Assembly: GCF_000443165.1 (NCBI RefSeq)
Contig: NZ_ATJV01000070.1
Location: 124,001 to 188,000, forward strand
DNA from: Thauera terpenica 58Eu
GTDB taxonomy: Bacteria > Pseudomonadota > Gammaproteobacteria > Burkholderiales > Rhodocyclaceae
DNA: 64,000 bases
Direction: 5' to 3'
The notes beneath the pieces were generated by a model that worked only from the letters and a program-made list of their open reading frames with translations, was not told where the DNA came from and ran no database searches. This document shows positions 14,983 to 33,777 of this stretch, piece by piece; position 1 is the first letter of the stretch, and each line of letters opens with the position of its first letter. A program made the position numbers and the translations under genes.

Positions 14983-16188
14983 ATGACCACCGAACAAGAG
15001 GGCTTTGACTATTCAAACCTGCCCGACGTGGAGCTCACCGAAGCCGCCGTGCTGGCGGCCGCGCGGGAGAAGACCGGACTGTCCGATTTCGGCGATGAGG
15101 CGGACTGGAAGGAAGGTTTCACGCTGCTGCTCAAAGGCTTGAACGAGGAAGCCAGACTGAGCAAGATCGGCCGCATCGTCGCCTTTGGCGAAGTGCTCCG
15201 CCATCTGGAGAACCGCCTGCGCGTCACCGACGACATCAAGCGCAATCCGGAGATCCTGCAGGTGAAGATCGAGAAGCCGGTGTTCCTGATGGGTCTGCCC
15301 CGCACCGGCTCCACGATCCTGCACGATCTGATGGCGCAGGATCCGGACAACCGGGTGCCGATGACCTGGGAGTGCAACTACATGTCGCCGCCGCCGGAGG
15401 CCGCCACCTACGATACCGACCCGCGTATCGCCGATTGCGTGGCCCACCTGGAGCGCACCGCGGCCGCCCTGATCCCCGAGTTTCAGGCCATCCACGAAAT
15501 GGGTGCGCTGCTGGCGCAGGAATGCCTGATGCTCAACGCCTTCGACTTCAAGAGCCAGATCTTCTCCAACCAGTTCTGGGTGCCCACCTACCAGCGCTGG
15601 GTGGAGAGCGTCGATAACCTGTCGGTGTATCGCACCCACAAGCGCCAGCTGCAGTACATGCAATGGAAGAACCCGCGCGCGCGCTGGGTACTGAAGAGCA
15701 CCAGCTATTTCTGGGGCCTGGACGCGATCATGGCGGTCTATCCGGACGCGCAGATCGTGATGACCCATCGCGACCCGATCAAGCTCATCGCCTCCCACTG
15801 CTCCTTGATTTCCATGGCCTGCAGCATGGGCAGCGACCTGATCGACAAGAAGGAAGTGGGCGAGTTCTGGAGTGTCACCTGGGAAAAGGCGATGAAGAAA
15901 TTCGTCGAATTCCGTCAAAGTGGAAAGGCCGAAAACGTCTTCGACATGCACTTCGCCGAACTGGTGAAGGATCAGGTGGGCATGGTCAAGCGCATCTACG
16001 CTCACTTCGGGCTGCCACTGACGGCCGCCACCGAGCAGAAGATGCGCGCGTTCATCGCCAACAATCCGAAGGAGCGCCACGGCACCCACCGCTACACCCT
16101 GGAACAGTTCGGCCTGGACCCTGCGCAGGAACGGGAGCGCTATCGTTTCTACCAGGATTATTTCCACGTCGCCAGCGAGGGCCAATGA
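14983..16188 (+). CDS. PAPS-dependent sulfotransferase, copy 1
   Basis: This 401-residue cytosolic enzyme of the Sulfotransfer_3 type would move a sulfuryl group from PAPS to an alcohol or phenol. The 5'-phosphosulfate loop is GLPRTGST at residues 104-111. The 3'-phosphate region is IVMTHRDPIKLIAS. The C-terminus carries the HRYTLEQFGLD signature also found in copy 2 (HRYSLAEFGLD). The ribosome site AGGAGGAG is strong. It sits directly between the aldolase gene and a DUF1214 gene whose possible first ATG overlaps its stop. A sulfotransferase inside a catabolic operon is unusual, and PAPS genes 9.5 kb downstream support activity. Confidence 0.87.
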   Translation: MTTEQEGFDYSNLPDVELTEAAVLAAAREKTGLSDFGDEADWKEGFTLLLKGLNEEARLSKIGRIVAFGEVLRHLENRLRVTDDIKRNPEILQVKIEKPVFLMGLPRTGSTILHDLMAQDPDNRVPMTWECNYMSPPPEAATYDTDPRIADCVAHLERTAAALIPEFQAIHEMGALLAQECLMLNAFDFKSQIFSNQFWVPTYQRWVESVDNLSVYRTHKRQLQYMQWKNPRARWVLKSTSYFWGLDAIMAVYPDAQIVMTHRDPIKLIASHCSLISMACSMGSDLIDKKEVGEFWSVTWEKAMKKFVEFRQSGKAENVFDMHFAELVKDQVGMVKRIYAHFGLPLTAATEQKMRAFIANNPKERHGTHRYTLEQFGLDPAQERERYRFYQDYFHVASEGQ

Positions 16189-16286
16189 GGCGATACCTGG
16201 CCATCCTGGGGATGGCCTTCTTCATACCCTGCCATGCCGGAAGCAGTATTCCGGCAGGCACCCCTGAGCCTATGCGAGGAGTATCG

Positions 16287-17396
16287 ATGAGCCCGACCAA
16301 ACAGACGAGTGTGCAGGCATGGGAGGCGTTTTGCGATCAATTGAAGCTGGCTGGCGCGGTGCTGGCCCGCGAATCGACGCCGGACGATGAGCTGACCCAG
16401 GCCGAGGGCCTGCGCAAGCTGGTACGGACGATTCGCATGGGCTTCGAGGCCAGCCTGGAATATGGCAACACCGACTTCCCCGAGGTCTATCAGGTGTTGA
16501 CGCCGACCACCCTGGGAGAGGGAGAAACCGCCGACGCCCATTATCACCAGGCCATGATCGACGGCAGCAAGACTTACCGTCTCCATGGCCAGCGCGGCGA
16601 AGCGCCCTACATGGAGCTCACCGTCTATGCCGGCAAGATCGGCCTGGACAGCAGCAGCGCCCAGATCGCAACGGTGACCGAGGTGGACCTGCAGGTAGAG
16701 GCGGACGGCAGCTACGAGCTGATGCTGTCCCCCGACCCCCAGCCCGGCAACTGGCTGCGCACCACCCCGGAAACATCGGTCCTGTTCATCCGTCAGTATG
16801 CCCACGACTGGAGCAAGACCCGCGATGCAAGCTTCAACATCGAACAGGTCGGCGCCACTGGCGATCGGCCATTGCTGACGGTGGAGGAAGTGAGCCGGGC
16901 GCTGAGCCGCACTGCGACCTACGTGGGCCGTTCGGCCGGCACCTGGGCCGCCATCGTGGACCAGCGCCGCGCCGCAGCACCCAATCGCTTCTTTGTGTTC
17001 GAGCTGGAAAAGAAGGACGACGATGAGGAGGCGCCGGAGATGCCCTCCGGTCACCGTTTCTCCTCGGGTTATTTCCGCCTCGCGCAAGACGAGGCCTTGC
17101 TGGTGAGCTTCAAACCAGCCGAAGTGCCTTATTGGGGCCTGGACACCACCAACTACTGGTTCGAGGCCTTGTCCTACGCCGAGCGCCGATCCCACCACAA
17201 CAACCGCACGGTGCGCTACGAGCCCGATGGCAGCGTGCGCATCGTGATCGCGCCCAAGGACCCCGGCGTCACCAACTGGATCGACACGCGGGGCCATCTC
17301 GAGGGGCCGATGCTGTTCCGCTGGTCACGGACCAATCTGGCACTGCCGGAGATCCAGGCCGAGGTGGTCAAGCTTGCCGACCTGGCAAAGAACTGA
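16287..17396 (+). CDS. DUF1214-domain protein, copy 1 (sulfotransferase partner?)
   Basis: This 369-residue protein of unknown function is homologous to the one at 31437. Shared residues include DEALL, PYWGLDTTNYWFEAL against YIGFSLGNMWGESL, and the closing motif NWIDTRGHLEGPMLFRW (about residues 330-346). I chose ATG 16287 with an AGGAG five bases upstream. An ATG at 16185 overlapping the sulfotransferase stop would add 34 residues that look like a signal peptide (MRRYLAILGMAFFIPCHA). Which start is used decides cytosol or periplasm. Both copies lie immediately after a sulfotransferase gene, which argues for a joint reaction. No catalytic motif is known to me. Confidence 0.75.
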   Translation: MSPTKQTSVQAWEAFCDQLKLAGAVLARESTPDDELTQAEGLRKLVRTIRMGFEASLEYGNTDFPEVYQVLTPTTLGEGETADAHYHQAMIDGSKTYRLHGQRGEAPYMELTVYAGKIGLDSSSAQIATVTEVDLQVEADGSYELMLSPDPQPGNWLRTTPETSVLFIRQYAHDWSKTRDASFNIEQVGATGDRPLLTVEEVSRALSRTATYVGRSAGTWAAIVDQRRAAAPNRFFVFELEKKDDDEEAPEMPSGHRFSSGYFRLAQDEALLVSFKPAEVPYWGLDTTNYWFEALSYAERRSHHNNRTVRYEPDGSVRIVIAPKDPGVTNWIDTRGHLEGPMLFRWSRTNLALPEIQAEVVKLADLAKN

Positions 17397-17430
17397 GCAC
17401 ATCGGGGACGGACTGACCCAGTCCACGCAT

Positions 17431-17471
17431 GGCGAGCCCGCCTTTGTTCGGTGGGCTCGCCTTCTTTTTTT
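17431..17471 (+). terminator. Rho-independent terminator after the hydroxylase operon
   Basis: A 12-bp stem GGCGAGCCCGCC / GGTGGGCTCGCC (one G-U pair) with a 7-base loop, followed by TTCTTTTTTT. It ends the transcript 35 bases after the DUF1214 stop. Confidence 0.9.
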
Positions 17472-17506
17472 CAACGACTTACGTTGTGCTCTGCAAAAGG
17501 CCAGGG

Positions 17507-18301
17507 ATGAACTCACACGCTGACACCAACATGCAGCCCGCCCTCGCGACGCCGGCCACTGGCGTCATCATCACCGGTGGCGCTTCCGGGCTGGGTCGGG
17601 CCAGCGCCCATGCGCTGGCTGCCGTGGGCCGAGCGGTGGCGATCTGGGACATCAACGCAAGCGCTGCCCTGATCGTGGCCGAGGAGATCCGCAGCCAGTA
17701 CGCAGTGGCTGCCGTCGGCATTGGTCTGGACATCAGTGTTCCGGCGGCTTATCCAGATGCCATCGACCAGTCACGGCGGGCACTGACGAGCATCGGCGCT
17801 CTGGTGCATGCAGCCGGAATTGTTGACACCGGGTCCCTGGAAGGGGTGACGCTGGAAAACTGGGATCAGGGCATCAACATCCATTTGCGCCCGGTGGCAC
17901 TATTGGTGCAGGCGCTGCATGCAGACCTGAAGGCCAACCCGGGCTCAGCCGTGGTCGCCTTCGCGTCCATCAATGCCACCCTGGGCAACCGCATGAATCC
18001 GATCTATTCCGCCGCCAAGGGCGGGGTGCTCTCGCTGGTGCGCTCGCTGGCCGACCGCCTGGGCGACGATGGCATCCGCATCAATTCCATTTCTCCTGGC
18101 CAGATCCTCACCCCGATGCTGCAGCCTGCGGTGGACGCACTGCCTCCGGGCAGCTTCGAGAAGCGCATCCTGCTCGGGCGCATGGGTGCACCGGAGGAGA
18201 TCGGTCGCGTGGTGCGCTTTCTGCTGTCCAACGAGGCCAGCTACATCACCGCCGCCGAGATCGTGGTGGACGGCGGAAATATCTCCTCCCAGCGCGGCTG
18301 A
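17507..18301 (+). CDS. Short-chain dehydrogenase/reductase
   Basis: This 264-residue NAD(P)-dependent SDR has TGGASGLG near residue 24, a catalytic Tyr/Lys in YSAAK, and the C-terminal AEIVVDGGN. An acidic residue (WDIN) after the second strand favours NAD. It probably interconverts a secondary alcohol and ketone, or acts as a 3-hydroxyacyl-CoA or hydroxysteroid dehydrogenase in the pathway. I chose ATG 17507 because the longer frame from 17429 begins inside the terminator. It is only 36 bases after that terminator, so it depends on read-through or on a short promoter I cannot define. It converges with the minus-strand group downstream. Confidence 0.85.
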   Translation: MNSHADTNMQPALATPATGVIITGGASGLGRASAHALAAVGRAVAIWDINASAALIVAEEIRSQYAVAAVGIGLDISVPAAYPDAIDQSRRALTSIGALVHAAGIVDTGSLEGVTLENWDQGINIHLRPVALLVQALHADLKANPGSAVVAFASINATLGNRMNPIYSAAKGGVLSLVRSLADRLGDDGIRINSISPGQILTPMLQPAVDALPPGSFEKRILLGRMGAPEEIGRVVRFLLSNEASYITAAEIVVDGGNISSQRG

Positions 18302-18338
18302 GGCGGCGTTGGGAGGAGATCGGCCCTCAGGGCTGTGC

Positions 18339-18824
18339 TCAGGTCGGCGATGAGGCGAGGCTGGCCGGATAGAAGTGGCCCGTCTCCTCGCCGACAGCTT
18401 GTTCGATTCGTTCCAGGATGCGCCAACCCGCGCTGGTCCGCAGGTAGCGGGTGCGGTAGTGGCCCGCAGTGACGCCCTGGCGTATATGCGTTGGCGTGCG
18501 CATCACATGACGAAATTCGAAAAAAATCACTGATTCGGCATGATCACCGTCGATCCTGAGCCTTGGCGGATGCATGTAATGCAGGCCCGACCAGTCCTGT
18601 CGGATCTGCGCGCAGAAGGCTTCGAGCGCCGCCCGCCCTTCAATCCGCAGCTGCGGAGTCTGGCCGATGGCGAGCATCTCGAAGACGCCATCTTCGGCAA
18701 ACACCTCCGCCCATTGCCGCGGCGTGCCCAGATCCCAGCCATGAGCGTACTCGGCCTCCAGGTCGAGGATCGCAAAGCGATCCTCGATGGCGCCGAGCCT
18801 GCGTTCCTGATCTTCTGTCGACAT
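18339..18824 (-). CDS. SnoaL-like NTF2-fold protein
   Basis: This 161-residue protein belongs to the SnoaL_4/scytalone-dehydratase-like group, with IEDRFAILDLEAEYAHGWD near the start and a GWRILERIEQ strand near the end. Homologues include small isomerases and dehydratases, and ring-hydroxylase-beta-like proteins without cofactor. The ribosome site AGGAGA is good. It is the last gene of a minus-strand group with the acyl-CoA synthetase (14-base gap) and an SDR. It could catalyse an isomerisation or dehydration of the CoA ester or ketone, which is not provable from sequence. Confidence 0.75.
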   Translation of the reverse strand: MSTEDQERRLGAIEDRFAILDLEAEYAHGWDLGTPRQWAEVFAEDGVFEMLAIGQTPQLRIEGRAALEAFCAQIRQDWSGLHYMHPPRLRIDGDHAESVIFFEFRHVMRTPTHIRQGVTAGHYRTRYLRTSAGWRILERIEQAVGEETGHFYPASLASSPT

Positions 18825-18837
18825 GGGCTTTCTCCTG

Positions 18838-20631
18838 TCAGATCGGCGGCGAAGGCGGAATGCCGAGCCGCGACAGGCTCTCTTCGCTCAGCGCCACGTA
18901 TCGCCCTGCAGCGGCATCCGCAACATACAGTTCATCACCGGCAACCGGCGCGTAGCCTGATTTCTGCAGATCCACCTTGCGCAGCTTGAAGGTGGCGGTG
19001 ATGTCGGCATCGGCCTTGACGCGGATGAAGAGCGGAATCGCATAGCTCGGCAGCGCCTTGGCTGCGAGTTGGTGACAGGCCACCGGATCGAAACGCTGTC
19101 CGGGCTGCATCACCAGTGTGGCCATGCCCGCGCGCCCTTCCTGGCCGGGGACGGATACCCCGTACACCGTGACCGTTTCCACGCCCGGCCAGTCGCTCAG
19201 GGCATTGGCCACTTCGGTGGTGGAGACGTTCTCGCTCTTCCAGCGGAAGGTATCGCCGACACGGTCCACGAAGTAGTAGTAGTCGTCCTCGTCGCGGCGG
19301 AACAGGTCTCCGGTGCTCATCCAGGCGTCACCGGGCTGGAACACATTGCGCAGGATCTTCTTCTCGGTGGCTGCCGGGTCGGTATAACCGTCGAAACGCC
19401 CCCCGCTGATCCCGGGCAGATTGAGGATCATGCCCAGCATTTCCCCCACTTCATTCGGTCCACACTCGATCAGGGTGCCGTCCGGGCTGCGCACGTGGCA
19501 GTCCTGGTCGCGGTCGTACTTCACCAGGCGGGCGTTGCTGCGCTCCTTGAAGGGGATGCGCCCGCAGGAACCGATCCGGTTGTCGATGTTCATCATGCCG
19601 ACGTTCAGTTCCGTGCCGCCGTAGCCCTCTATCATCTGCGTGACCCCGAAGCGGTCCTGGAAAGCCTGCCAGATCGCGGGGCTCAAACCGGAGCCGGTCA
19701 TCACTCGCAGCGAGTGATTTTTATCGTCTGGATGAGGAGGCTGGTTGAAGAGATAGCGGCACATCTCGCCGCTGTACTGGGCGACGGTGATGTCGTGCCG
19801 GCGCACGTCCTGCCAGAACTGGCTGGCGCTGAAGCGGCGTTTCAGAATCACGCGCCCGCCGCTGGCGAGGGCGTTGGCGAGCAGCGACATCAGCGCCGCC
19901 ACATGGTAGAGCGGCAGCACGCAATAGAACGCGTCCGTCGGCCCCAGACCGAGGAAATCGCACCAGGCTTCGCCGGTGCCCAGCCAGCGCGCATGCGTGA
20001 CCTTGGCCGCCTTGGGCAGGCCTGTGGTGCCTGAGGTGAAGATCAGGCACAGCGTGCTCTGCCCGATGATGCCGTCGCGCAGGCTGCGGTCCGGGTTGGA
20101 GCCGGGCTGGGTGCTCAGTTGCGCGCCGAGTTCGATGCAGCCCGCGGGAATCTCCCGCGGTTCGCCATCCGTCACCGCGTAGGTGGGCAGTCGACCCGGG
20201 ATCTCGGGCGTCTGCTCCAGGCGACCCAGGCACTCCGTGCCGATGAACAGGCGTTGACTGGCGGTGGTGGCCAGTGCGTGGCGCAGGGCATCACCACTGG
20301 CCTGGGGGTTGATCAGGGCCGAAACGCAGCCGATCTTGGCGAGCGCGAACCAGATGAAGAGGAACTCCGGCCGGTTTTCCATCAGCAGGGCCACCACATC
20401 CCCTGGCTTCACCCCCTGGGCGAGGGCGAAATGGGCGTAGCGGTTGGCTTGGGCGTTGACTTCTCCATAGCTGAGGACCTGCTCGTTCCAGATCAGGAAA
20501 GGACTGTCCCCAGCCTGAGCGGCCCGCGCCTCCAGGCGGTCGGCGACCGTATAGGACTGCTCCGGGGTGTGTTTCATCATCCCGGCCGAGATGATGTCCA
20601 TCCTGGCCTGGGTTTGTTCGCGAGTCACCAT
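18838..20631 (-). CDS. Acyl-CoA synthetase (FATP/very-long-chain type)
   Basis: This 597-residue ATP-dependent ligase makes a CoA thioester through an acyl-AMP. The AMP-binding motif IFTSGTTGLPKAAK lies near 197-210. GYGGTE follows, and then the second-domain motif GDLFRRDEDDYYYFVDRVGDTFRWKSENV, split across about 440-470. It resembles mammalian FATP/bile-acyl-CoA ligases and actinobacterial steroid side-chain ligases more than benzoate ligases. The start at 20631 has an AGGAGGG site. The longer open frame lies inside the upstream SDR gene. It follows that SDR by 35 bases in one transcript. Likely substrate: the carboxylated side chain produced by the alcohol and aldehyde dehydrogenases (inference). 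Confidence 0.85.
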   Translation of the reverse strand: MVTREQTQARMDIISAGMMKHTPEQSYTVADRLEARAAQAGDSPFLIWNEQVLSYGEVNAQANRYAHFALAQGVKPGDVVALLMENRPEFLFIWFALAKIGCVSALINPQASGDALRHALATTASQRLFIGTECLGRLEQTPEIPGRLPTYAVTDGEPREIPAGCIELGAQLSTQPGSNPDRSLRDGIIGQSTLCLIFTSGTTGLPKAAKVTHARWLGTGEAWCDFLGLGPTDAFYCVLPLYHVAALMSLLANALASGGRVILKRRFSASQFWQDVRRHDITVAQYSGEMCRYLFNQPPHPDDKNHSLRVMTGSGLSPAIWQAFQDRFGVTQMIEGYGGTELNVGMMNIDNRIGSCGRIPFKERSNARLVKYDRDQDCHVRSPDGTLIECGPNEVGEMLGMILNLPGISGGRFDGYTDPAATEKKILRNVFQPGDAWMSTGDLFRRDEDDYYYFVDRVGDTFRWKSENVSTTEVANALSDWPGVETVTVYGVSVPGQEGRAGMATLVMQPGQRFDPVACHQLAAKALPSYAIPLFIRVKADADITATFKLRKVDLQKSGYAPVAGDELYVADAAAGRYVALSEESLSRLGIPPSPPI

Positions 20632-20666
20632 GTGACAGCCCTCCTGGAGAGAAAGGTGGAAAAGTG

Positions 20667-21437
20667 TCAGATCGCGCCACCACAGACCGAGAGGGTCTGT
20701 CCGGTGACATAGCTGGAAGCCTGGCTGGCGAGGAATAGCGCCGGACCGACGATCTCCTGGGGCTCTGCGGCCCGCCTCAGCATGGTGACGCTTTCGGCGT
20801 ACTTGATGAATCCAGGGGTCTGCTTTTCCAGGTCGGTCATCATTTCGGTGAGGAAGGGCCCCGGCGCGATCGCGTTGACGCGGATGCCCTGCGACGCCCA
20901 CTCGTCCGCCATGCTGCGCGTCAAGGCGATCAGCGCCGCCTTGCTCGAGCAGTACAAGGCCAGCTGACCGGCGGGGCGCAAGCCTCCCATCGTGGCGATA
21001 TTGACGATGGAGCCCCCACCCGCCGGGATCATGCGCTTTGCCACGGCTGCGGCCAGATGCATGGGTCCCTTGGTATTGACGCCGAAGAAGCGGTCGAACA
21101 TCTCCTCGCTGGTCTGGGTCAGCGGCGTCATGGTTTGCACGATGCCGGCGTTGTTGACCAGTACGTCACAACGACCGAACTTCTCGTAGACCGTCTCCAC
21201 CAGGCGCTCGACCTCCGCCCACTCGCCCACATCGCTGGCAATCGCCAGCGCGCGACGTCCCATGGCCTCGATCTCCCTGGTGACCTCCTGGAGCGCGGGC
21301 AGGGAACGGCTGGTGACGACGACATCGGCGCCGGCCGCCGCAAAACCCAGGGCAATGGCCTTGCCCAGGCCCCGACTGCCACCCGTGACAAGCGCAAGCT
21401 TGCCGCTCAGATCGAAAAGCTGTTGTGTGGTGTTCAT
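20667..21437 (-). CDS. Short-chain dehydrogenase/reductase with Thr in place of the catalytic Ser
   Basis: This 256-residue classical SDR has TGGSRGLG near residue 18, NNAG near 93 and YCSSK as the Tyr/Lys pair. The residue 13 positions before the Tyr, normally the catalytic Ser, is Thr (IATMGG). Thr can sometimes replace Ser, so the enzyme may be active. VTSRS after strand 2 suggests NADP. Start 21437 has a strong GGAGGAG site. It is first in the minus-strand group SDR, acyl-CoA synthetase, NTF2-like, divergent from the TetR gene. Palindromes in between probably bind that TetR. Confidence 0.85.
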   Translation of the reverse strand: MNTTQQLFDLSGKLALVTGGSRGLGKAIALGFAAAGADVVVTSRSLPALQEVTREIEAMGRRALAIASDVGEWAEVERLVETVYEKFGRCDVLVNNAGIVQTMTPLTQTSEEMFDRFFGVNTKGPMHLAAAVAKRMIPAGGGSIVNIATMGGLRPAGQLALYCSSKAALIALTRSMADEWASQGIRVNAIAPGPFLTEMMTDLEKQTPGFIKYAESVTMLRRAAEPQEIVGPALFLASQASSYVTGQTLSVCGGAI

Positions 21438-21505
21438 CCTGCTCTCCTCCTTCACCAATTTATAAACATCCCGAACGCTTGCTTTGTTGTTAACGAGAAG
21501 ATAGC

Positions 21506-21531
21506 ATGGAATTCCATTGACCATGCAATGG
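21506..21531. promoter_or_regulatory. Overlapping palindromes, likely TetR operator
   Basis: ATGGAATTCCAT (21506-21517) is a perfect 12-bp palindrome. CCATTG N6 CAATGG (21514-21531) is an overlapping 18-bp inverted repeat. Both lie in the 189-base gap between the divergent SDR and TetR genes, the classic place for an autoregulated TetR operator. Confidence 0.55.
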
Positions 21532-21626
21532 TGTCGAGAGATTCAGGATCGAGGGGTATCCCCACTCATGGGTGCCATCGATTAAAGTCGATCGCTTGCT
21601 ATGTTCATAGTCAGACTGGAGTGAGA

Positions 21627-22280
21627 ATGATCTCGTCGGAAACAACGATCATGCCGGAAACGGGCAAACCGCAGACTGCAACGCGCCGGACCCAGGAAGA
21701 GCGCAGTGCCGCCACCCGGGAGAAAGTGATCCAGGCCACCATCGACTGCATTGTCGAAGAGGGTCTGCACAACACCACTGCAGCCCGCATCACCGCACGC
21801 TCGGGCATCACCTGGGGGGCGATCGCCCACCAGTTCGGCGACAAGGACTCCGTGCTGTTTGCCGTCGTCGAGCGCAACGGCGAGATTTACCGCAAGCTCA
21901 TCGACGCCACGCTGATGGAGGCGGGAGACACACCCGAGGAGCGCATCGCGGCGCTCATCGATGTCACCTGGAAATACATCAATGAGCCCTCCTCCTTCGC
22001 CTTCAACGAACTCGTCATCCAGAACCGCGCGCGCAACAACCCCATGATCATGGGCCAGCAGGAGGACATGTCCTTCAGGCAGATGCAGAGCACCTGGGAC
22101 AAGTTCTTCGGCGAGTTCGAGATTCCGCAGGCCCGGCTGGAAACGGTGCGCAACCTGACCCTGGCCACCCTGCAAGGCCTGTCACTGATGCGCCTGATCA
22201 GCCAGCGCCGGCCGAGCTTCAAGAGCGAGATTGCCGCCCTGAAAAAATGCGCCCTGCAGATGCTGACTGTCGAGCCCTGA
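21627..22280 (+). CDS. TetR-family transcriptional regulator
   Basis: This 217-residue repressor has an N-terminal helix-turn-helix at about residues 22-68 (REKVIQATIDCIVEEG, then TARSGITWGAIAHQF) and a C-terminal ligand domain without a family I can name. I chose ATG 21627 with GGAG upstream; ATG 21651 is also possible. It is divergent from the SDR/ligase group and followed 63 bases later by the alcohol dehydrogenase. It probably controls both, and perhaps the hydroxylase operon, in response to a CoA ester or hydrophobic substrate. Confidence 0.85.
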   Translation: MISSETTIMPETGKPQTATRRTQEERSAATREKVIQATIDCIVEEGLHNTTAARITARSGITWGAIAHQFGDKDSVLFAVVERNGEIYRKLIDATLMEAGDTPEERIAALIDVTWKYINEPSSFAFNELVIQNRARNNPMIMGQQEDMSFRQMQSTWDKFFGEFEIPQARLETVRNLTLATLQGLSLMRLISQRRPSFKSEIAALKKCALQMLTVEP

Positions 22281-22343
22281 GGACGTTTCCCCGGCTCCAT
22301 CCGCGTGGCAAACCGCCCGCCAACTTTGCCTGAAAGGTCACCC

Positions 22344-23426: not shown

Positions 23427-24136
23427 ACGCCCACACCCACGCCCACACCGAGAGCATCGACGGCCTGGCATCGCCCGCCGCCACCTGCAGCTACCTTTAT
23501 GCCCTGCTGGGAGAATGCTTCGCTTATCCGGACGCCGACCTGGTGGAAAACCTGCGGAGCGGCGCTCTGCTGGCGCAGATCCAGAAGCTTTGCGACGCCC
23601 TGGATCCCGCCCTGCTCCAGGGACTGGATGCTGCGGTCTTCAACGACCCCGCGGCCTCCCTGGATGCGCTCAAGGTGGAGTACACGCGGCTCTTCGATGC
23701 GGGCGCCCAGGGCACAGGCTGCTCACTCAACGGCGGCCTGCAACGCGGCCCGCAGATGAAGGTGATGGAGGAGGCGGTGCGCTTCTACGCCCATTTCGGC
23801 CTGACCCTGACCGAGGAGCAGAAGGAACTGCCGGATCACCTCACCACGCAGTTGAACTTCCTGCACTTCCTCGCCTACGGCGAGCACCTGCTGCAGACCC
23901 AGGGCGAATCCACCGACGCCTACCGCCTGGCGCGACGAGATTTCATCGCCCGCCACCCGGGACGCTGGCTGCCCATCATGGAAGACAAGCTGCGCACCAT
24001 GGAGCCCATGCCCCTGTTCCTGAGCTTCACGGAACTGCTGCGCCGCCTGCTCGCGCTGGATCTCGCCCAGTTGCAGGCGCAGCACGGCGAGGCCTCATTG
24101 AAGCCCTCGGGCGACATGCCCTTCGGCGGGCTTTGA
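23423..24136 (+). CDS. TorD/DmsD-family chaperone for the Mo hydroxylase
   Basis: This 237-residue all-helical protein of the TorD/NarJ family (EbdD/DdhD-like) is a cytoplasmic chaperone that protects the Tat signal and helps insert the molybdenum cofactor. Helical segments include YLYALLGECFAYPDADLV near residue 27 and VEYTRLFDAGAQGTGCSL near 78. ELPDHLTTQLNFLHFLAY (about 135-152) is the typical DHL-E/Q motif region. No ATG fits. I propose TTG 23423, which overlaps the alcohol dehydrogenase stop and has GGAG ten bases upstream. It lies 11 kb from the alpha subunit, although it usually adjoins it. Confidence 0.8.
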   Translation: MNAHTHAHTESIDGLASPAATCSYLYALLGECFAYPDADLVENLRSGALLAQIQKLCDALDPALLQGLDAAVFNDPAASLDALKVEYTRLFDAGAQGTGCSLNGGLQRGPQMKVMEEAVRFYAHFGLTLTEEQKELPDHLTTQLNFLHFLAYGEHLLQTQGESTDAYRLARRDFIARHPGRWLPIMEDKLRTMEPMPLFLSFTELLRRLLALDLAQLQAQHGEASLKPSGDMPFGGL

Positions 24137-24154
24137 ACACATAGGAGTGTCGCG

Positions 24155-25585: not shown

Positions 25586-25665
25586 CCAGAGCAGGGGGAT
25601 GAAGACAGGCAGTCGCCGTACTGAGAGGGATCCGCCTCCAGGCGCCCCTCGCCCCCATACTCCCA

Positions 25666-25680
25666 CACCCTCACCCTCAC
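25666..25680 (+). repeat. Second copy of CACCCTCACCCTCAC
   Basis: This 15-mer is identical to the one at 8278-8292. It sits in the C-rich 136-base gap before cysD, which otherwise shows no clear promoter. Confidence 0.35.
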
Positions 25681-25721
25681 ACCCCCATGTCCCCACATCC
25701 CGCATCGGAGCTGGAGAACTC

Positions 25722-26621
25722 ATGACACTGACCCACCTGCAACGCCTCGAAGCCGAGAGCATCCACATCATGCGTGAGGTCGTCGCCGAAGCCGACAACC
25801 CCGTCATGCTTTACTCGATCGGCAAGGACAGCGCGGTGATGCTGCACCTGGCGATGAAAGCCTTCCACCCGGCGGTGCCACCGTTTCCGCTGCTGCACGT
25901 CGATACGCGCTGGAAGTTTCGCGAGATGTACAAGTTTCGCGAGCGCATGGTCGCCGAGACCGGCATGGACCTGCTGGTGCACATCAACCCCGAGGGCGTC
26001 GAGAAGAACATCAACCCCTTCACCCACGGCTCGGCGATTCACACCGACATCATGAAGACCGAGGGCCTCAAGCAGGCGCTCGACCAGTACGGCTTCGATG
26101 CCGCCTTCGGCGGCGCGCGCCGCGACGAAGAGAAGGCGCGTGCCAAGGAGCGTGTGTTCTCGTTTCGCAGCGCACAACACCGCTGGGACCCGAAGAACCA
26201 GCGCCCCGAGCTGTGGAAGCTCTACAACGCGCGCAAGCACAAGGGCGAGTCGATCCGCGTGTTTCCGCTGTCGAACTGGACCGAGCTCGACATCTGGCAA
26301 TACATCTACCTTGAGAACGTGCCCATCGTGCCGCTCTACCTCTCGGCCGAGCGCCCGGTGGTCGAGCGTGACGGCACGCTGATCATGGTCGACGACGAGC
26401 GCATGCCGCTGCACCCGGGTGAAGTACCGATGATGAAGAAGGTGCGCTTCCGCACCCTGGGCTGCTACCCGCTGACCGGCGCGGTCGAGTCCGAGGCCGA
26501 CACCTTGCCGGCGATCATTCAGGAGATGCTGCTCACCAAGACCTCCGAGCGTCAGGGCCGCGTCATCGATCACGACTCGGCAGCATCCATGGAAAAGAAG
26601 AAGCAAGAGGGGTACTTCTAA
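25722..26621 (+). CDS. cysD: Sulfate adenylyltransferase small subunit
   Basis: CysD forms APS from ATP and sulfate together with the GTPase CysN. The 299-residue protein has the PP-loop SIGKDSAVM at residues 32-40, [21 protein letters not shown] and the C-terminal [12 protein letters not shown], all standard. I chose ATG 25722 with GGAG-type sites upstream; the frame from 25599 covers a low-complexity leader. Its stop overlaps the cysNC start. Linked to two sulfotransferase genes, it may feed PAPS to them rather than serve only cysteine synthesis. Confidence 0.95.
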
Positions 26622-28528
26622 TGGCTCACACATCCGACCTGATCGCCACCGATATCGAGCAATATCTCAAGGCACATGAGAACAAGAGCCTGCTGCGCTT
26701 CATCACCTGCGGCAGCGTGGACGACGGCAAGAGCACCCTCATCGGGCGTCTGCTGTATGAATCGAAGATGCTGTTCGAGGACCAGCTCGCTGCGGTCGAA
26801 GCCGACTCGAAGAAGTTCGGCACCCAGGGCGACGAGATCGACTTCGCCCTGCTCGTCGATGGCCTGGCCGCCGAGCGCGAGCAAGGCATCACCATCGACG
26901 TGGCCTACCGCTTCTTCTCCACCGACAAGCGCAAGTTCATCGTCGCCGACACTCCCGGCCACGAGCAGTACACACGCAACATGGTCACCGGTGCCTCCAC
27001 CGCCGACGTCGCCATCCTGATGGTCGATTCGCGCCGCGGCATCCTCACCCAGACCCGGCGCCACAGCTATCTGGTCAAGCTGCTGGGCATCCGCCATGTG
27101 CTGGTGGCGATCAACAAGATGGATCTGGTCGATTACTCGGAAAAGACCTTCAACGACATCGTCGACGCCTACCGCGATTTCGCCGCCCGGATCGGACTTG
27201 AGAGCCCCACCTTCATCCCGCTCTCGGCGTTCAAGGGCGACAACATCACCGACCCCAGTGCGGCCATGCCCTGGTACCACGGCACCACGCTGATGGGCTA
27301 CCTGGAAACGGTGGAGATCGACGATGAGCGCATGCAGCGCGCGCCCTTCCGTCTGCCGGTGCAGTGGGTCAACCGCCCCAACCTGGACTTCCGTGGCTTT
27401 GCCGGCACCATCGCCGGCGGCGTCATCCGTCCGGGCGACCGCATCCGCGTGCAGCCTTCGGGGCGCGAGAGCACGGTGGCGCGCATCGTCACCCGCGGCG
27501 GCGATCTGGAGCAGGCCGTGTCGGGCCAGTCGATCACGCTGACCCTGAACGACGAGATCGACATCTCGCGCGGCGACGTGATCTCCACCGTCGGCGCCCC
27601 GGCCGAGACCGCCGACCAGTTCGAGATCACCCTGGTGTGGATGCACGACGAGCCCTTGCTGCCCGGGCGCCCCTACCTGCTCAAGATCGGCACCAAGACG
27701 GTCACCGCCACCATCACCGACATCAAGTACCAGGTGAACGTGAACACGCTCGAGCACGTGGCCGCCAAGACGCTCGAGCTCAACGCCATCGGCGTGTGCA
27801 ACCTGAGCCTGGACCGCCAGATCGCCTTTGATCCCTATCAGGACAACCGCGACACCGGTGGCTTCATCCTCATCGACCGCCTGAGCAACAATACCGTCGG
27901 TGCCGGCCTGCTGCACTTCGCGCTGCGCCGCGCACACAACATCCACCTGCAGCATATGGATGTGGACAAGATCGCGCGCGCGAGCATCAAGCACCAGCAG
28001 GGCTGCGTGCTGTGGTTCACCGGCCTGTCGGGCGCGGGCAAGTCCGCGATCGCCAACCTGGTCGAGCAAAAGCTGCACGGCCTGGGCCACCACACCTATC
28101 TGCTCGACGGCGACAACGTGCGCCACGGCCTGAACAAGGACCTCGGCTTCACCGACGCCGACCGTGTGGAGAACATCCGCCGCGTGGGCGAAGTGGCCAG
28201 GCTGATGGTCGACGCCGGACTGATCGTGCTCACCGCCTTCATCTCGCCCTTCCGCGCCGAGCGCAGTATGGCGCGCAGCCTGGTGGAAGAGGGCGAGTTC
28301 GTCGAGGTCTTCGTCGACACACCGCTGGAAGTGGCCGAGCAGCGCGACGTCAAGGGCTTGTACAAGAAGGCGCGGCGCGGCGAGCTGAAGAACTTCACCG
28401 GCATCGACTCGCCCTACGAGGCGCCGGAAGAGCCCGAGATCCGTCTCGACACCACCCGCTTGTCGCTCGAGGCCGCAGCCGACGCAGTGATCACCACGCT
28501 GCGCCTGCGTGGCGTCATCAGCGACTGA
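26621..28528 (+). CDS. cysNC: Bifunctional sulfate adenylyltransferase large subunit / APS kinase
   Basis: This is a 635-residue fusion of CysN and CysC. Residues 1-445 are an EF-Tu-like GTPase (GSVDDGKST at 31-39, [16 protein letters not shown]) that drives APS formation. Residues 455-635 are an APS kinase (P-loop GLSGAGKS at 468-475, [10 protein letters not shown], then FISPFRAER) that makes PAPS. The NodQ-type fusion delivers PAPS directly, which suits sulfotransferases. The start overlaps the cysD stop. A strong hairpin lies between it and cysQ. Confidence 0.95.
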
Positions 28529-28556
28529 AGCGCTCGACTCATCGGCTCCCGACCGC

Positions 28557-28590
28557 CCCTCCCCGGCAGCCCCGCGGCTGTCGGGGAGGG
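28557..28590 (+). other. Intercistronic hairpin between cysNC and cysQ
   Basis: A 15-bp stem (CCCTCCCCGGCAGCC / GGCTGTCGGGGAGGG, one G-U pair) with a 4-base loop and no T-run. It may protect the upstream mRNA end or attenuate cysQ. Confidence 0.6.
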
Positions 28591-28632
28591 CGCCGCAGGG
28601 CCGCCAACTGAACGTTCCACCCAGGACTCGCC

Positions 28633-29415
28633 ATGACTCAGTCTTACGCCCCCCAGGCCTTACTCGACGCGCTGCTGCCCATCGCACGTCAAGCCGGCGC
28701 GGCCATCATGAACATCTACGCCACCGACTTCGAGGTGCGCGGCAAGGACGACGCCTCGCCCGTGACCGAAGCCGACGAGTGCGCCGAAGCGCTCATCCTG
28801 CCCGCACTGGCCAGCCTCACGCCGGACATCCCGATCGTCGCCGAAGAAGCCGTTGCCGCCGGCCACATCCCCAGCGTGGGCGAGCGCTTCTGGCTGGTCG
28901 ACCCGCTGGACGGCACCAAGGAGTTCATCAACCGCAATGGCGAATTCACGGTGAACATCGCCCTCATCGAAAACGGCTCACCGGTCCTGGGCGTGGTCTT
29001 CGCACCTGCGCTCGATCGCCTGTTTGCCGGCGCGGTCGGGCTGGGCTCTTTCGTCGAAGACCAGGGTGTACGCCGCAACATCGCCTGCCGCAGCGAGCCC
29101 GCCGCGGGCCTGACCGTGGTTGCCAGCCGTTCGCACGGCGATGCCGATGCGCTCGCCAGCTTCCTCGCCGGGCGCAAGGTCGCCAGCCAGACCAATGCCG
29201 GCTCATCGCTCAAGCTATGCCTGGTGGCCGCGGGCGAAGCCGATGTCTACCCGCGTCTGGGGCGCACCATGGAATGGGACATCGCCGCCGGCGACGCCGT
29301 GCTGCGTGCGGCGGGCGGCATCGTACGCACGCTCGACGGCCCTGCGCTGCGCTATGGCAAAGCCGATTTCGCCAATCCGCATTTCGCCGCCTGGGGCAAA
29401 ACCGCCGCAGCCTGA
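28633..29415 (+). CDS. cysQ: 3'(2'),5'-bisphosphate nucleotidase (PAP phosphatase)
   Basis: CysQ hydrolyses PAP, the inhibitory by-product of every sulfotransferase reaction, to AMP. The 260-residue protein has the lithium-sensitive phosphatase metal site: EEAV near residue 71, DPLDGTKEF at 90-98, and EWDIAAGDAVL near 216. It lies 104 bases after cysNC, beyond a hairpin. Together cysD, cysNC and cysQ make a PAPS supply and PAP removal set placed between the two sulfotransferase operons. Confidence 0.93.
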   Translation: MTQSYAPQALLDALLPIARQAGAAIMNIYATDFEVRGKDDASPVTEADECAEALILPALASLTPDIPIVAEEAVAAGHIPSVGERFWLVDPLDGTKEFINRNGEFTVNIALIENGSPVLGVVFAPALDRLFAGAVGLGSFVEDQGVRRNIACRSEPAAGLTVVASRSHGDADALASFLAGRKVASQTNAGSSLKLCLVAAGEADVYPRLGRTMEWDIAAGDAVLRAAGGIVRTLDGPALRYGKADFANPHFAAWGKTAAA

Positions 29416-29454
29416 GCAGGCAAAAACCGAGCTTTATTCAGTTTCTTCAAAACG

Positions 29455-29514
29455 GAATCGGTCGCGCGTCGCAACGCATTGTTATATAGAATGTTTTTCA
29501 CGACGCGCGGATTC
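29455..29514. promoter_or_regulatory. Long inverted repeat around an AT-rich core, upstream of tetR
   Basis: The left arm GAATC-N3-CGCGCGTCG (29455-29471) and right arm CGACGCGCGGATTC (29501-29514) are complementary. They flank a 29-base core containing TATATA, a likely -10 region. It is a candidate operator or structured leader for the operon starting at 29591. Confidence 0.45.
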
Positions 29515-29590
29515 TCTCACAGCCCCGAATGCGAGTAGTCAGCGCGGCATTGGTTTGCTCAAATGAAGTTCATTCAGAGCACAAGAAGCC

Positions 29591-30262
29591 ATGGCCGCCA
29601 GGCACTCTCCCCTCCGCCGCAACCCCACTCAATCCCGCGCCGAAGCCACGCTGAAGGCGATTCGTGAGGCGACGCTCAGAATCCTGAAAGAGGAGGGGCC
29701 GGCGCGCCTGAACACCAACCGCATTGCCGAAGTGGCGGGCATCAGTATCGGCAGCCTGTACCAGTACTACGCCGACAAACATGCGATTGCGGCCGACATC
29801 TGCAACGAATTGCTGATGTCCGAACTGGGCGACATCAAGCGCCTGGATCGTCAGACATTGAGTCTGGCGCGCGACTCACTGGATTCGACCCTCGCATTCT
29901 TCGTCGAAGAGCACGTCGCTCGCCACCGCCGCCTGTACCAGCAGCTCAAGGGCTTCTATCTCGAGATCCACTGGAGTTACGACTTCGAGGTGTACTCGCG
30001 CAAGCTCTACCCGAACAAACCGAGCACCGCCGAGTGGCTGCCCTCAGCCCTCCAACAACACCACGCCGTGCTGCGCGTGCACGATTTCGAGCTTGCCGCC
30101 CAGATGGTGGTGAACGCGCTCGAAGGCACGATCCACGCCACGCTGGATCGCAACCCGGATCTGATCCTGAGCCAGGCCTTCGTCGACGAGTTGCAGGCGA
30201 TGCTCGTCAATTACCTCAAGAAGACACCCACTGAGGGAGCCCCCCCTCTCCCTGAGGAGTGA
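29591..30262 (+). CDS. TetR-family transcriptional regulator
   Basis: This 223-residue regulator has a well-formed N-terminal HTH: TLKAIREATLRILKEEG, then RIAEVAGISIGSLYQYYADKHA, at about residues 19-62. The C-terminal ligand domain resembles the TetR_C group of AcrR-like regulators. It is the first gene of an operon with sulfotransferase 2 (GTG start 4 bases after the tetR stop), DUF1214 protein 2, an SDR and an LLM oxidoreductase. The inverted repeat at 29455-29514 may be its autoregulatory site. Confidence 0.87.
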   Translation: MAARHSPLRRNPTQSRAEATLKAIREATLRILKEEGPARLNTNRIAEVAGISIGSLYQYYADKHAIAADICNELLMSELGDIKRLDRQTLSLARDSLDSTLAFFVEEHVARHRRLYQQLKGFYLEIHWSYDFEVYSRKLYPNKPSTAEWLPSALQQHHAVLRVHDFELAAQMVVNALEGTIHATLDRNPDLILSQAFVDELQAMLVNYLKKTPTEGAPPLPEE

Positions 30263-30265
30263 ATC

Positions 30266-31444
30266 GTGTTCTATTACTTCGACTTCAGCGTCTGGTTCAA
30301 GCTGCTGCGTCTGGTCAGCAAGGAAAAGAACGATCGCCAGCGCCGCGGGCTGTACAAGTTGCTGCTGCTGCACATCCCGCTGCGCGCGAGCGTCACCGCG
30401 CTATGCTTTTTTCTCGATGGCATCCTCTTCCCCGCACTGTGGCGCACCCAGGTGAAGACGCCGGTGTTCATCATCGGTCATGCGCGCAGCGGCACCACGC
30501 TGGCACACCGCCTGATGAGTGCGGACGAACGCTTCTCGACCTTCAAGTACTACGAGTTGCTGCTGCCCTCACTGCTGCAGAAAAAACTTGTGCATCTCGC
30601 GGCCTGGATCGACGCCAGGGTGCTCGGCGGGGTGCTCGAGCGCAAGCTGCAGGCCTGGGAGAAGCGCAAGTTCGGCCCGACGCAGCACATCCACAAGATG
30701 GGGCTGACGATCCCGGAAGAAGACGACCTGCTCTACTTCAACTCCTGCGCCTCCGGCTTCTGGCTCACCAAGCTGCCCTACATGAGCGAGCTCGATTTCT
30801 TCCACGTCGACCAGCGTTCCCCCGCCAGCCGGCGCCGCATGATGAAATTCTACAAGGAGTGCGTGCGCCGCCAGCTCTACATCAATGGCAGCGAGCGCAT
30901 CCACCTGAGCAAGAACCCCACCTACTGTGGTCGCGTCGAGGCGCTGATCGAAACTTTCCCCGACGCCCGCTTCGTCGTCCTCTACCGTAACCCTTACGAG
31001 ACCATCCCCAGCCTGCTCAAGCTGCTCAACGTGGGCTGGAAGCTGCAAGGCAACCTGTCCAGGGAGCGTGTGCGCGAGTCCAACGAAGTCATGACCGGGC
31101 TGTCCTACGAGACCTATCTCCACCCACGCGAAGTCCTCGCGCGTCACCCCGAAACTCCGCACGCAATCATCGACTACCGCCGCCTGACCACCGACCCCAA
31201 GGGCTGCATCGAAGACGTGTACCGCGACCTCGGCCTCGACATCACCCCGGCCTACGCCGCCTTCCTCGAGGCCGAAGCCGCACGCACGCGGCGCCACGAA
31301 ACCGAGCATCGCTACAGCCTGGCCGAGTTCGGCCTGGATGATCAGGACATCCGCCGGCGACTCGCCCCCCTGTTCGAAGAGTTCCAGTGGGACGAGCACA
31401 TTCCCGCCAAGCCAGAAGACGAGAAGGAAGCCACTCATGCATGA
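30266..31444 (+). CDS. PAPS-dependent sulfotransferase, copy 2
   Basis: This 392-residue sulfotransferase has its PAPS loop GHARSGTT at residues 71-78, a 3'-phosphate segment RFVVLYRNPYETIPS, and the C-terminal HRYSLAEFGLD shared with copy 1. An N-terminal hydrophobic stretch (about 39-58, ALCFFLDGILFPALW) could anchor it to the membrane, which copy 1 lacks. The start is GTG at 30266 with GAGGAG eight bases upstream. Its last 8 bases overlap the DUF1214 gene. The two copies are clearly diverged, so they likely act on different substrates or steps. Confidence 0.85.
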   Translation: MFYYFDFSVWFKLLRLVSKEKNDRQRRGLYKLLLLHIPLRASVTALCFFLDGILFPALWRTQVKTPVFIIGHARSGTTLAHRLMSADERFSTFKYYELLLPSLLQKKLVHLAAWIDARVLGGVLERKLQAWEKRKFGPTQHIHKMGLTIPEEDDLLYFNSCASGFWLTKLPYMSELDFFHVDQRSPASRRRMMKFYKECVRRQLYINGSERIHLSKNPTYCGRVEALIETFPDARFVVLYRNPYETIPSLLKLLNVGWKLQGNLSRERVRESNEVMTGLSYETYLHPREVLARHPETPHAIIDYRRLTTDPKGCIEDVYRDLGLDITPAYAAFLEAEAARTRRHETEHRYSLAEFGLDDQDIRRRLAPLFEEFQWDEHIPAKPEDEKEATHA

Positions 31445-32888
31445 CATCCCCCCCCAACACCAGCAGGCGCTGGAGACCGTCACCGCCCACCTCCAGCTCA
31501 CCGATCCCGCCGCGCGCGATGCCGCAGCCATGCTGCGCAAGGCCTGGGACGGCATGCTCGAGCAGCTCGTCGACGCACGTAACGCGATCGACGATCCCAA
31601 GCTGTGGCCGCCGCCGGCCACGCCGCGCAACCTCGCCGAAGGTTATCGCTACGTGCTGGGCTTTCTCTACGGCTCGATCTCGCGCTGCCTCGGCCCGACG
31701 CCCGAGTTTCCCTATTTCGTGCGCGCCATCCAGCCGCTCAACCGATCGACCATCGACAACTGCGACGCGATCTACCTGATGGCGCCGATCGACGGCAACT
31801 ACAGTTACACCATCCGCGGGCGCGCAGCCGACAGCAGCGCATGGCGTGGCGAAAAGGCCCCGGCCGGCGCGCGCAAGGCGCCCCACTACGTGATCTTCGA
31901 GACCCCCAGCGGCTACTCGGGCGAGAGCGGCAGCCTCAAGGAGATGAAGCCCGGTACGCGCATCAACTGCGCCGAACTCGACAGCACCGAGCTCAAGGTC
32001 GACGCCGACGGCCGCTTCGAGATCCTGCTCGCGCCGGAAAAGCCCGCCGGCTACGAAGGCAACTTCATGCTCACCCGCGCCAGCCGCACGCGCAAGCAAA
32101 AGGATGGCAGCAGCGTCACGCGCGAATACGTCAGCCAGCTGGTGATGCTGCGCGAGCTGTTCTCCGATTGGGAAAATGAAGACCTGCTCGAGCTCTTCAT
32201 CTACCGCAATGATCTGCTCGGCAAGCCGATGCCGCCCTACACCGCTGAGCTCGCCGCGCATCAGATCGCCGAGATCGGCCGTTTCACCCGCAACCAGGTA
32301 CATTTCTGGAACGAGTTCTACGCCGTCGTATGCGAGGTCTACGGCGACATGAACGGCGACGGCGAGCGCTTCATGCCGCGCAACGACTTCAACAAACCCA
32401 ACGCCGCCTCGCTTGCCACCGCCGGCGGCATGGCGACCAACGTCTACTGCGGCGGCATGTTCGAGCTCGCCGCCGACGAGGCGCTGGTGATCGAAATGCA
32501 TCAGCCGGTCGAGCCGGTGTACATCGGTTTCAGCCTGGGCAACATGTGGGGTGAATCGCTCGACTTCGCCAACTATCAGAGCAGCCTGGGCGGCCTGCAG
32601 GCGCAGCGCGACGCCGACAACGTATTCCGTCTCGTGATTGCGCACACCGATCCGGGCATCGCCAACTGGCTCGACACCACCGGCCAGCCCGAAGGCTACA
32701 TGGCCATCCGCTGGGCCTACCCGTCCAAGCCGATGGACAAGCTGCCGTGGGCGACCGCAAAGAAAGTGGCGCTGGCCGAGGTCCGCCAGCACCTGCCCGC
32801 CGACACCCGTATGGTCACGCCCGAACAACGCCGACACGCGATCGCCATCCGCCAGGAACACGTCCAGCGGCGTTATCGCCAACACTGA
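31437..32888 (+). CDS. DUF1214-domain protein, copy 2 (sulfotransferase partner?)
   Basis: This 483-residue protein of unknown function is longer than copy 1 by an N-terminal region of about 110 residues. The C-terminal half matches copy 1: DEALVIEM, YIGFSLGNMWGESLDFA, then NWLDTTGQPEGYMAIRW at about 409-425. I see no signal peptide, so it should be cytosolic like the sulfotransferase. ATG 31437 has AAGGAAG upstream and overlaps the sulfotransferase gene by 8 bases, so translation is coupled. The two genes recur as a pair, so a joint function (elimination of the sulfate ester, or binding of the sulfated compound) is my best guess. Confidence 0.75.
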   Translation: MHDIPPQHQQALETVTAHLQLTDPAARDAAAMLRKAWDGMLEQLVDARNAIDDPKLWPPPATPRNLAEGYRYVLGFLYGSISRCLGPTPEFPYFVRAIQPLNRSTIDNCDAIYLMAPIDGNYSYTIRGRAADSSAWRGEKAPAGARKAPHYVIFETPSGYSGESGSLKEMKPGTRINCAELDSTELKVDADGRFEILLAPEKPAGYEGNFMLTRASRTRKQKDGSSVTREYVSQLVMLRELFSDWENEDLLELFIYRNDLLGKPMPPYTAELAAHQIAEIGRFTRNQVHFWNEFYAVVCEVYGDMNGDGERFMPRNDFNKPNAASLATAGGMATNVYCGGMFELAADEALVIEMHQPVEPVYIGFSLGNMWGESLDFANYQSSLGGLQAQRDADNVFRLVIAHTDPGIANWLDTTGQPEGYMAIRWAYPSKPMDKLPWATAKKVALAEVRQHLPADTRMVTPEQRRHAIAIRQEHVQRRYRQH

Positions 32889-33754: not shown

Positions 33755-33777
33755 ACCCCTCGCCACAGGGCACCCTC

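Follow-up and report, generated by a model that had tools for sequence, protein, structure and literature searches.

The 64,000-nt stretch of Thauera terpenica 58Eu DNA analyzed here (the window; G000:C70:124001-188000, from a 135-contig genome of 4.15 Mb) contains two sulfotransferase genes, each followed by a gene for a DUF1214 protein. In the first pair, ST1 (14983..16188, + strand) precedes D1 (16287..17396, +, with 16287 the likely start). In the second, ST2 (30266..31444, +) and D2 (31437..32888, +) overlap by 8 bases. ST1 and ST2 match Sulfotransfer_3 (PF13469, cut-off 27 bits) with 137 and 87.4 bits, respectively, and D1, scanned from 16206, matches DUF1214 (PF06742, cut-off 25 bits) with 54 bits. 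D2 scores 24.8 bits against the same model and was recognized by its alignment with D1, which runs along the whole length at 27% identity and includes a common motif (DPG..NW.DT.G...G...RW). These scores and this alignment bear out two claims of an earlier, sequence-only reading of this DNA, that both pairs are real and that their DUF1214 proteins are homologous. That reading also called the pair duplicated. The pairs are indeed homologous, but the wording is loose. ST1 and ST2 share 22% identity and D1 and D2 27%, which makes the pairs old paralogues and rules out a recent duplication.

The earlier count of two pairs was right for the window but incomplete as a tally, since two more lie elsewhere in the genome, a short-chain dehydrogenase/reductase (SDR) gene behind each pair had been passed over, and a sulfate-activation gene set between the pairs had gone unmentioned. 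The SDR genes of the window are 17507..18301 (+, start uncertain; adh_short_C2) in module 1 and 32903..33754 (+; adh_short) in module 2. Profile searches of the T. terpenica genome returned three DUF1214 proteins (four rows, D1 accounting for two) and sulfotransferases at six places (seven rows, two being one frame). D2 was recovered by alignment search, not by profile, which gives four DUF1214 proteins of this kind. All four adjoin a sulfotransferase gene and an SDR gene, the latter downstream of every pair, and four of the six sulfotransferase places are paired with DUF1214. Module 3, which shares contig C70 with the window (10.2-13.4 kb, pair at ∼10.2-12.6 kb; L012), has the order DUF1214-sulfotransferase-SDR; module 4 (C43, pair at ∼15.4-17.9 kb; L014) has the same order preceded by a luciferase-like (LLM) oxidoreductase gene. 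Because gene order varies among the four modules, the association is not merely one copied block. No DUF1214 was detected by profile around the unpaired sulfotransferase on C56 (20 kb; L015) or around a weak one at C43:98 kb (13 kb; L016). The latter sits among genes that look, from their translations, like glycosyltransferases.

The same neighborhood recurs in other genomes. Relatives were collected in one scan of genome contigs with three close DUF1214 sequences, and the best 80 of at least 558 were analyzed, with neighbors scored by tblastn using window and locus proteins up to 9 kb on each side (some loci end at contig ends). A sulfotransferase gene lies beside DUF1214 in all 80, within 200 bp between match ends in 79 and at 551 bp in the other (L056). 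In 74, an SDR resembling the PRK07890-type one of module 3 was found within 5 kb. LLM genes, present in two of the four T. terpenica modules, were not visible in this form at any of these 80 best loci. Sixteen named genera are represented: Pseudomonas, Cupriavidus, Paraburkholderia, Burkholderia, Ralstonia, Comamonas, Aromatoleum, Collimonas, Pseudoduganella, Solimonas, Nevskia, Hydrocarboniphaga, Panacagrimonas, Stagnimonas, Sinimarinibacterium and Halioglobus. Four partly overlapping sets of genomes (150, 369, 200 and 398) were also drawn at random and searched at E ≤1e-10; apart from T. terpenica itself, they yielded 19 distinct DUF1214-like loci. Ten of these are close (≥400 bits versus alignment A5), and all ten have a sulfotransferase within 1.7 kb (L018, L019, L020, L116/L132, L118, L119, L120, L124, L159 and L161, of which L018-L020 belong to A5 itself). 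The neighborhood is therefore conserved in other genomes, as the sequence-only reading had required of a functional unit, and the sulfotransferase–DUF1214 pair is almost certainly such a unit. Distances among DUF1214 proteins and among their partner sulfotransferases also correlate (0.92 over 92 pairs, and 0.83 over 20 pairs chosen as deep, with L069 dropped for its split sulfotransferase). This is weak evidence, because any co-inherited genes correlate and the comparison held no control gene.

Some loci depart from the common layout. A second DUF1214 gene lies 3' of the SDR gene in Stagnimonas, Solimonas and Nevskiaceae (L079:13206-14273, L084:12133-13194, L085, L089 and L103). Proteins of ∼237-240 residues are encoded near the sulfotransferase and SDR genes at L057:11308-12018 (Pseudomonas) and L087:12309-13028 (Solimonas). 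Neither gave a Pfam match at E 1e-5, and the two are not shown to be one family. Among more distant relatives, the DUF1214 gene of L128 has sulfotransferase genes on both sides, and at L168:3-2614 two DUF1214-like frames lie one behind the other at the end of a contig, with no sulfotransferase in 6 kb.

The most telling neighbor of the window pairs is a complete gene set (25599-29415) for supply and turnover of 3'-phosphoadenosine 5'-phosphosulfate (PAPS), located between them and just upstream of pair 2. It comprises CysD, the small subunit of sulfate adenylyltransferase (25599..26621, +; NF009214, TIGR02039); CysNC, an ATP sulfurylase GTPase fused to adenosine 5'-phosphosulfate (APS) kinase (26621..28528, +; NF004035, 1068 bits, with an APS_kinase domain); and CysQ, a phosphatase of 3'-phosphoadenosine 5'-phosphate (PAP) (28633..29415, +; TIGR01331, 287.5 bits). 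A TetR-type regulator gene (29591..30262, +; TetR_N, TetR_C_15) follows, directly 5' of ST2. Across the 80 best relatives, CysD, CysNC or a stand-alone APS kinase was found at 58 loci and CysQ at 12; the stand-alone kinase was confirmed by family at one of them (L074). The arrangement varies, with PAPS genes divergent, co-directional, or represented by an APS kinase inserted behind the sulfotransferase gene, and PAPS genes thus seem to have joined the module more than once.

T. terpenica has another sulfate-activation set at C1:65-68 kb, consisting of CysH, CysD and CysN without APS kinase, and a search of the genome with CysNC found no second APS kinase. The full-length CysH of that set passes an APS-reductase model (257.5 bits, cut-off 235.3) and falls below the PAPS-reductase model TIGR02057 (144 bits, cut-off 254.2). 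Its translation contains CC and CxxC cysteines, which we take to be the mark of iron-sulfur APS reductases. An APS-reductase-type CysH, together with the lack of APS kinase in the C1 set, makes the window set look dedicated, and its CysD and CysNC are probably a dedicated PAPS source. That they are ordinary assimilation genes is unlikely, given the separate set.

Both sulfotransferases carry the loop G..R(T/S)G(S/T)T (G..RTGST at residue 104 of ST1, G..RSGTT at residue 71 of ST2), and K238, R263, P265 and S271 of ST1 are invariant in 31 sequences. Presumably the loop binds the 5' portion of PAPS, and the conserved Arg and Ser form the 3'-phosphate site. These residues and the adjoining PAPS genes agree with the earlier assignment of PAPS as the sulfonate donor, and PAPS-fed sulfonation by the module is, as judged from these sequence features, very probable. 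The predicted model of ST1 (mean predicted local distance difference test score, pLDDT, 89) best matches the mycobacterial sulfotransferases STF1 (Mycobacterium tuberculosis, 2zq5) and STF9 (M. avium, 2z6v), its closest solved relatives by both sequence and fold; our searches found no function for either. Lower in the ranking are retinol dehydratase, human steroid sulfotransferases and the sulfotransferase domains of the olefin and curacin synthases. The predicted D1 model (pLDDT 86) is rich in beta strands. Its best fold match is 6ans (template modeling score, TM, 0.88), titled putative uncharacterized protein from Burkholderia cenocepacia, which is also a close relative by sequence of the module protein at L018 (571 bits). 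Next come Vibrio VPA0106 and VPA0735 (TMq ∼0.46), which we take to be DUF1254-DUF1214 proteins; they resemble D1 by superfamily fold but share only ∼10% identity with it and have no assigned function. In an alignment of 51 DUF1214 sequences, Y86, Y97, R169 and R345 of D1 are identical throughout, and D83 is 98% conserved.

A link to steroid catabolism is supported by genomic co-occurrence and by genes of side-chain type beside pair 1. As a steroid marker we used KshA_C (PF19298, cut-off 23.3 bits). T. terpenica encodes one such protein, with a Rieske domain (G000:C70:20531-21136, 194-196 bits), ∼7 kb beyond module 3 on the same contig. KshA_C was present in 46 of 50 module genomes (T. terpenica and 49 genomes of the 80 loci, hand-picked for variety), with best E-values of ≤1e-55 in all 46. 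In a draw from the phylum, only 8 of 398 genomes, T. terpenica included, had KshA_C at E 1e-40 or better, and none of 14 controls did. With T. terpenica removed, the marker was found in 4 of 5 module genomes versus 3 of 392 others (Fisher p = 1.7e-7, kinship not corrected for).

Pair 1 ends a same-strand run of genes encoding three molybdenum (Mo) enzyme subunits, a hydratase and an aldolase. The gamma (heme b) subunit of a dimethyl sulfoxide (DMSO)-reductase type II enzyme, EbdC-like, is at 7570..8220 (+; PF09459 EB_dh; TIGR03477, 165.5 bits, below the cut-off of 169.85). It is followed by an EbdB-like beta (FeS) subunit (8365..9435, +; TIGR03478, 501 bits, over the cut-off of 480.7) and an alpha (Mo) subunit of the ethylbenzene dehydrogenase family (9432..12314, +; TIGR03479, 932 bits, below the cut-off of 985; best solved relative 2ivf). 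Next are a fused MaoC/ChsH2-type hydratase (12314..13765, +; FAS1_DH_region, OB_ChsH2_C, zf-ChsH2, MaoC) and a thiolase/aldolase (13771..14943, +; PRK07855 lipid-transfer protein, 622 bits, cut-off 469) that we take to be of Ltp2 type. Pair 2, 3' of the PAPS and TetR genes, is followed by the SDR gene and an F420-dependent LLM oxidoreductase gene (33631..34815, +, true start probably later; TIGR03617, 343.7 bits). F420 biosynthesis genes CofE and CofD lie at window 5555-7269; LLM oxidoreductases of F420 type belong to modules 2 and 4. A further EbdA-type Mo alpha subunit (G000:C47:46140-49019) shares 45% identity with that of the window; its contig also has APH-family genes at 19 and 64 kb.

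Plasmid pNL2 of Novosphingobium aromaticivorans has three DUF1214 places, two of which were inspected. At one of them, annotation places a steroid delta-isomerase, a FadD3-family ligase and CysQ within ∼10 kb. Taken together with the window genes and the marker, this points to a substrate of steroid type, which we regard as quite probable. Twelve plasmid records of Sphingobium 'Tom' strains (AP027312-AP027342) have two to four DUF1214 matches each; from their names, we presume that these strains are tied to tomatine degradation. The portion consulted of a paper on tomatine-degrading Sphingobium makes no mention of a sulfotransferase (PMC10653915).

The module may extend to Actinomycetota. A plasmid of Tsukamurella tyrosinosolvens has, in order, an adenylyl-sulfate kinase gene (CysNC by Pfam), cysD, a regulator gene and genes for a DUF1214-like protein (22.3 bits, under the cut-off), an SDR and a sulfotransferase. 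Over 378 residues, this sulfotransferase matches 2zq5 at 573 bits, a structure whose title identifies the protein as sulfotransferase STF1 of M. tuberculosis H37Rv. STF1 is presumably Rv3529c. In the part of the KstR regulon study that we consulted, a KstR-bound motif is placed upstream of Rv3531c, the presumed first gene of the Rv3531c-Rv3530c-Rv3529c group, and MSMEG_5932, the M. smegmatis orthologue of Rv3531c by common table letter, is de-repressed 6-fold without KstR (PMC1995591). The consulted parts of two other sources were silent: no sulfotransferase appears in a paper on phytosterol-induced genes (PMC6593523), and the gene names of the Rv3529c-Rv3531c group do not occur in a KstR/KstR2 paper (PMC3068626). 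A tblastn search of plasmids for a Mycobacterium DUF1214 sequence returned none.

From these results we propose that the pair lies at the center of a PAPS-dependent sulfonation module serving the catabolism of steroids or similar polycyclic isoprenoids, with the DUF1214 protein most likely eliminating sulfate; we put the probability of this reading as a whole at roughly 0.5. With ATP, CysD and CysNC would convert sulfate into PAPS, the sulfotransferase would transfer the sulfonate group to a hydroxyl of a steroid intermediate, and CysQ would clear the PAP left behind as by-product. The SDR would adjust the oxidation level of the carbon bearing this hydroxyl or of one next to it, likely the former, before or after sulfonation. 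The resulting sulfate ester would then pass to the DUF1214 protein, most likely a sulfate C-O lyase that helps sulfate to leave and an alkene to form, thereby ridding the intermediate of an unreactive alcohol. Nearby reductases, such as the LLM enzymes or the product of an old-yellow-enzyme-like gene at window 2668-4800, could act on the alkene, though this is a guess. We consider it somewhat probable that DUF1214 acts on the sulfated product and hold more tentatively, by analogy, that its reaction is an elimination. Elimination is favored because sulfonation is costly, because known systems thus make a leaving group, and because the anaerobic phosphate version pairs a kinase with a lyase whose gene is unknown.

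Three known systems make it plausible that sulfate is a leaving group eliminated with the help of DUF1214, as the sequence-only reading had suggested. Retinol dehydratase, an insect enzyme, is a PAPS-dependent sulfotransferase that forms an alkene via a sulfate ester. Its structures (PDB 1fml, 1x8k) are among the matches of the ST1 model, and in both cases sulfonation would precede the alkene; yet it is a single protein of another sulfotransferase subfamily (TM ∼0.34) and has no DUF1214 partner. In the curacin CurM sulfotransferase-thioesterase and in olefin synthase (PDB 4gox, 4gbm), the sulfotransferase sulfates a beta-hydroxyl, and the second domain could drive dehydration and decarboxylation, as described in the part of PMC4090904 that we consulted. 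Here too a hydroxyl is activated by sulfation, but by domains of polyketide synthases with a thioesterase, without DUF1214 and without a steroid.

The parallel that had been drawn from the sequence alone was with anaerobic cholesterol side-chain oxidation, and this comparison is apt. Sterolibacterium denitrificans uses a 25-hydroxysteroid kinase, and the gene of the phosphate-eliminating 25-phosphosteroid C-O lyase is unknown according to the section consulted of PMC8449060. In that organism a side-chain hydroxyl is made a leaving group after hydroxylation by a Mo enzyme, and the window has a predicted Mo enzyme of this type beside pair 1. Steroid C25 dehydrogenase belongs to the DMSO-reductase type II Mo enzymes and performs a water-dependent hydroxylation (PMC6016249, in the portion consulted); the window subunits match models of this type, but the best solved relative of the alpha subunit is ethylbenzene dehydrogenase. 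S. denitrificans differs in using a kinase and ATP rather than a sulfotransferase and PAPS, and the module also occurs in bacteria that carry KshA_C and are presumably aerobic. Among the window genes scanned (326-36591), no small-molecule kinase was found except APS kinase. An APH-family search for a 25-hydroxysteroid kinase gave nine matches elsewhere in the genome, which were indistinguishable.

A number of results weigh against the proposed reading. No activity of any DUF1214 protein was found reported in the literature searched, and the fold points to no function, since the solved relative 6ans is uncharacterized. The 80 loci are the closest of at least 558 and partly redundant, with many from Pseudomonas, so they are not independent; 22 of them have no PAPS gene nearby, and several consist of the module and PAPS genes alone, with no other recognizable catabolic genes. 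Among the distant random-draw loci (≤255 bits versus A5; L156 scored only against A1), just one of nine has a sulfotransferase nearby (L128 yes; L121, L122, L125, L126, L130, L131, L156/L157 and L163 no). The count stayed the same when longer flanks of eight of these loci were searched with a sulfotransferase profile, 4 kb being retained for L128; small contigs limit the view at L130 and L131 (6 kb) and at L122. A weak match (25 bits) at L122, in a 2,100-codon open frame ending beside DUF1214 (L170:2601-8912), was counted as no. The split between 10 of 10 close and 1 of 9 distant loci indicates that partnership with a sulfotransferase belongs to one DUF1214 clade. On pNL2, the place with the steroid delta-isomerase gene has no sulfotransferase in 25 kb by profile, and at the other the nearest one is ∼6 kb from DUF1214, which is evidence against strict adjacency in sphingomonads. 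CysH of the C1 set also passes PRK02090, named phosphoadenylyl-sulfate reductase, so assimilation without PAPS is likely here, not certain. As for the steroid marker, PF19298 may catch other Rieske oxygenases (the T. terpenica protein scores 58.5 bits against methylsterol monooxygenase, cut-off 600), and at a lax threshold 1 of 14 control genomes matched it, below the cut-off; the organism concerned is not known to degrade steroids. KshA_C was not found in four module genomes, all metagenome-assembled (L086, L092, L097, L101), or in module genome G146 of the draw, and three KshA_C genomes of the draw lack the module. The module is thus not a universal steroid step.

The main rival holds that the sulfate ester is a removable tag for solubility, trapping or protection, or a guide for the next enzyme, and that DUF1214 is a binding protein or a sulfatase that later removes the tag. 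The neighborhood evidence from the 80 loci and Tsukamurella fits this equally, and the beta-strand-rich D1 model has good matches only to structures whose titles name no function. The presence of CysQ and of a dedicated PAPS set suits a steady flux of sulfonation, yet cannot separate a tag from a leaving group, and no result is in strict conflict with a tag. We think a tag rather unlikely, if less so than any other rival. A non-catabolic module whose product is a sulfated lipid or signal would account for the Cupriavidus and Comamonas loci, where module and PAPS genes have no obvious degradation cluster within 9 kb (flanks judged mostly by translation). The tight co-occurrence with KshA_C and the catabolic neighbors in the window and on pNL2 speak against it and make it improbable.

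Gene overlaps at three loci (window 31437/31444, L012 11399/11415, L020 2655/2658) and the parallel divergence of the two proteins, measured without a control gene, would suit a DUF1214 protein that is a mere partner or chaperone of the sulfotransferase with no reaction of its own. That would be hard to square with the ∼6-kb separation in N. aromaticivorans and with distant DUF1214 relatives that mostly lack a sulfotransferase, and we give it little credence. Least probable is a sulfotransferase running in reverse, making PAPS for assimilation from environmental steroid sulfate and PAP. As is generally known, sulfotransferase reactions can be reversible, but CysQ by the module (in the window, at the 12 loci noted above and on pNL2) would destroy PAP, and CysD/CysNC would make PAPS from inorganic sulfate, both pushing the reaction forward.

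All parts of the module come from known families. As far as searched, what is new is the module itself, its PAPS supply and its tie to steroids; no report on the sulfotransferase–DUF1214 pair was found in the open-access literature searched. Bacterial steroid catabolism is usually described in terms of oxygenases and CoA esters, to which anaerobes add Mo hydroxylases and a kinase; in the literature found, that description does not include a dedicated sulfonation step supplied with PAPS of its own. More speculatively, and with considerable doubt, DUF1214 may represent a novel enzyme type, namely a steroid-sulfate C-O lyase. Sulfotransferase, DUF1214 and SDR would then form a portable dehydroxylation cassette used at several positions (four here), in Actinomycetota too, including the mycobacterial KstR cholesterol regulon (Rv3531c-Rv3530c-Rv3529c) if Rv3531c is a DUF1214 protein. 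The proposal gives a clade of DUF1214 proteins its first testable function, provides context for two solved structures (6ans and STF1/2zq5) and suggests a candidate role for three neighboring mycobacterial genes behind a KstR site. If DUF1214 is indeed a lyase, it would do for sulfate what the missing lyase of the 25-phosphosteroid route does for phosphate.

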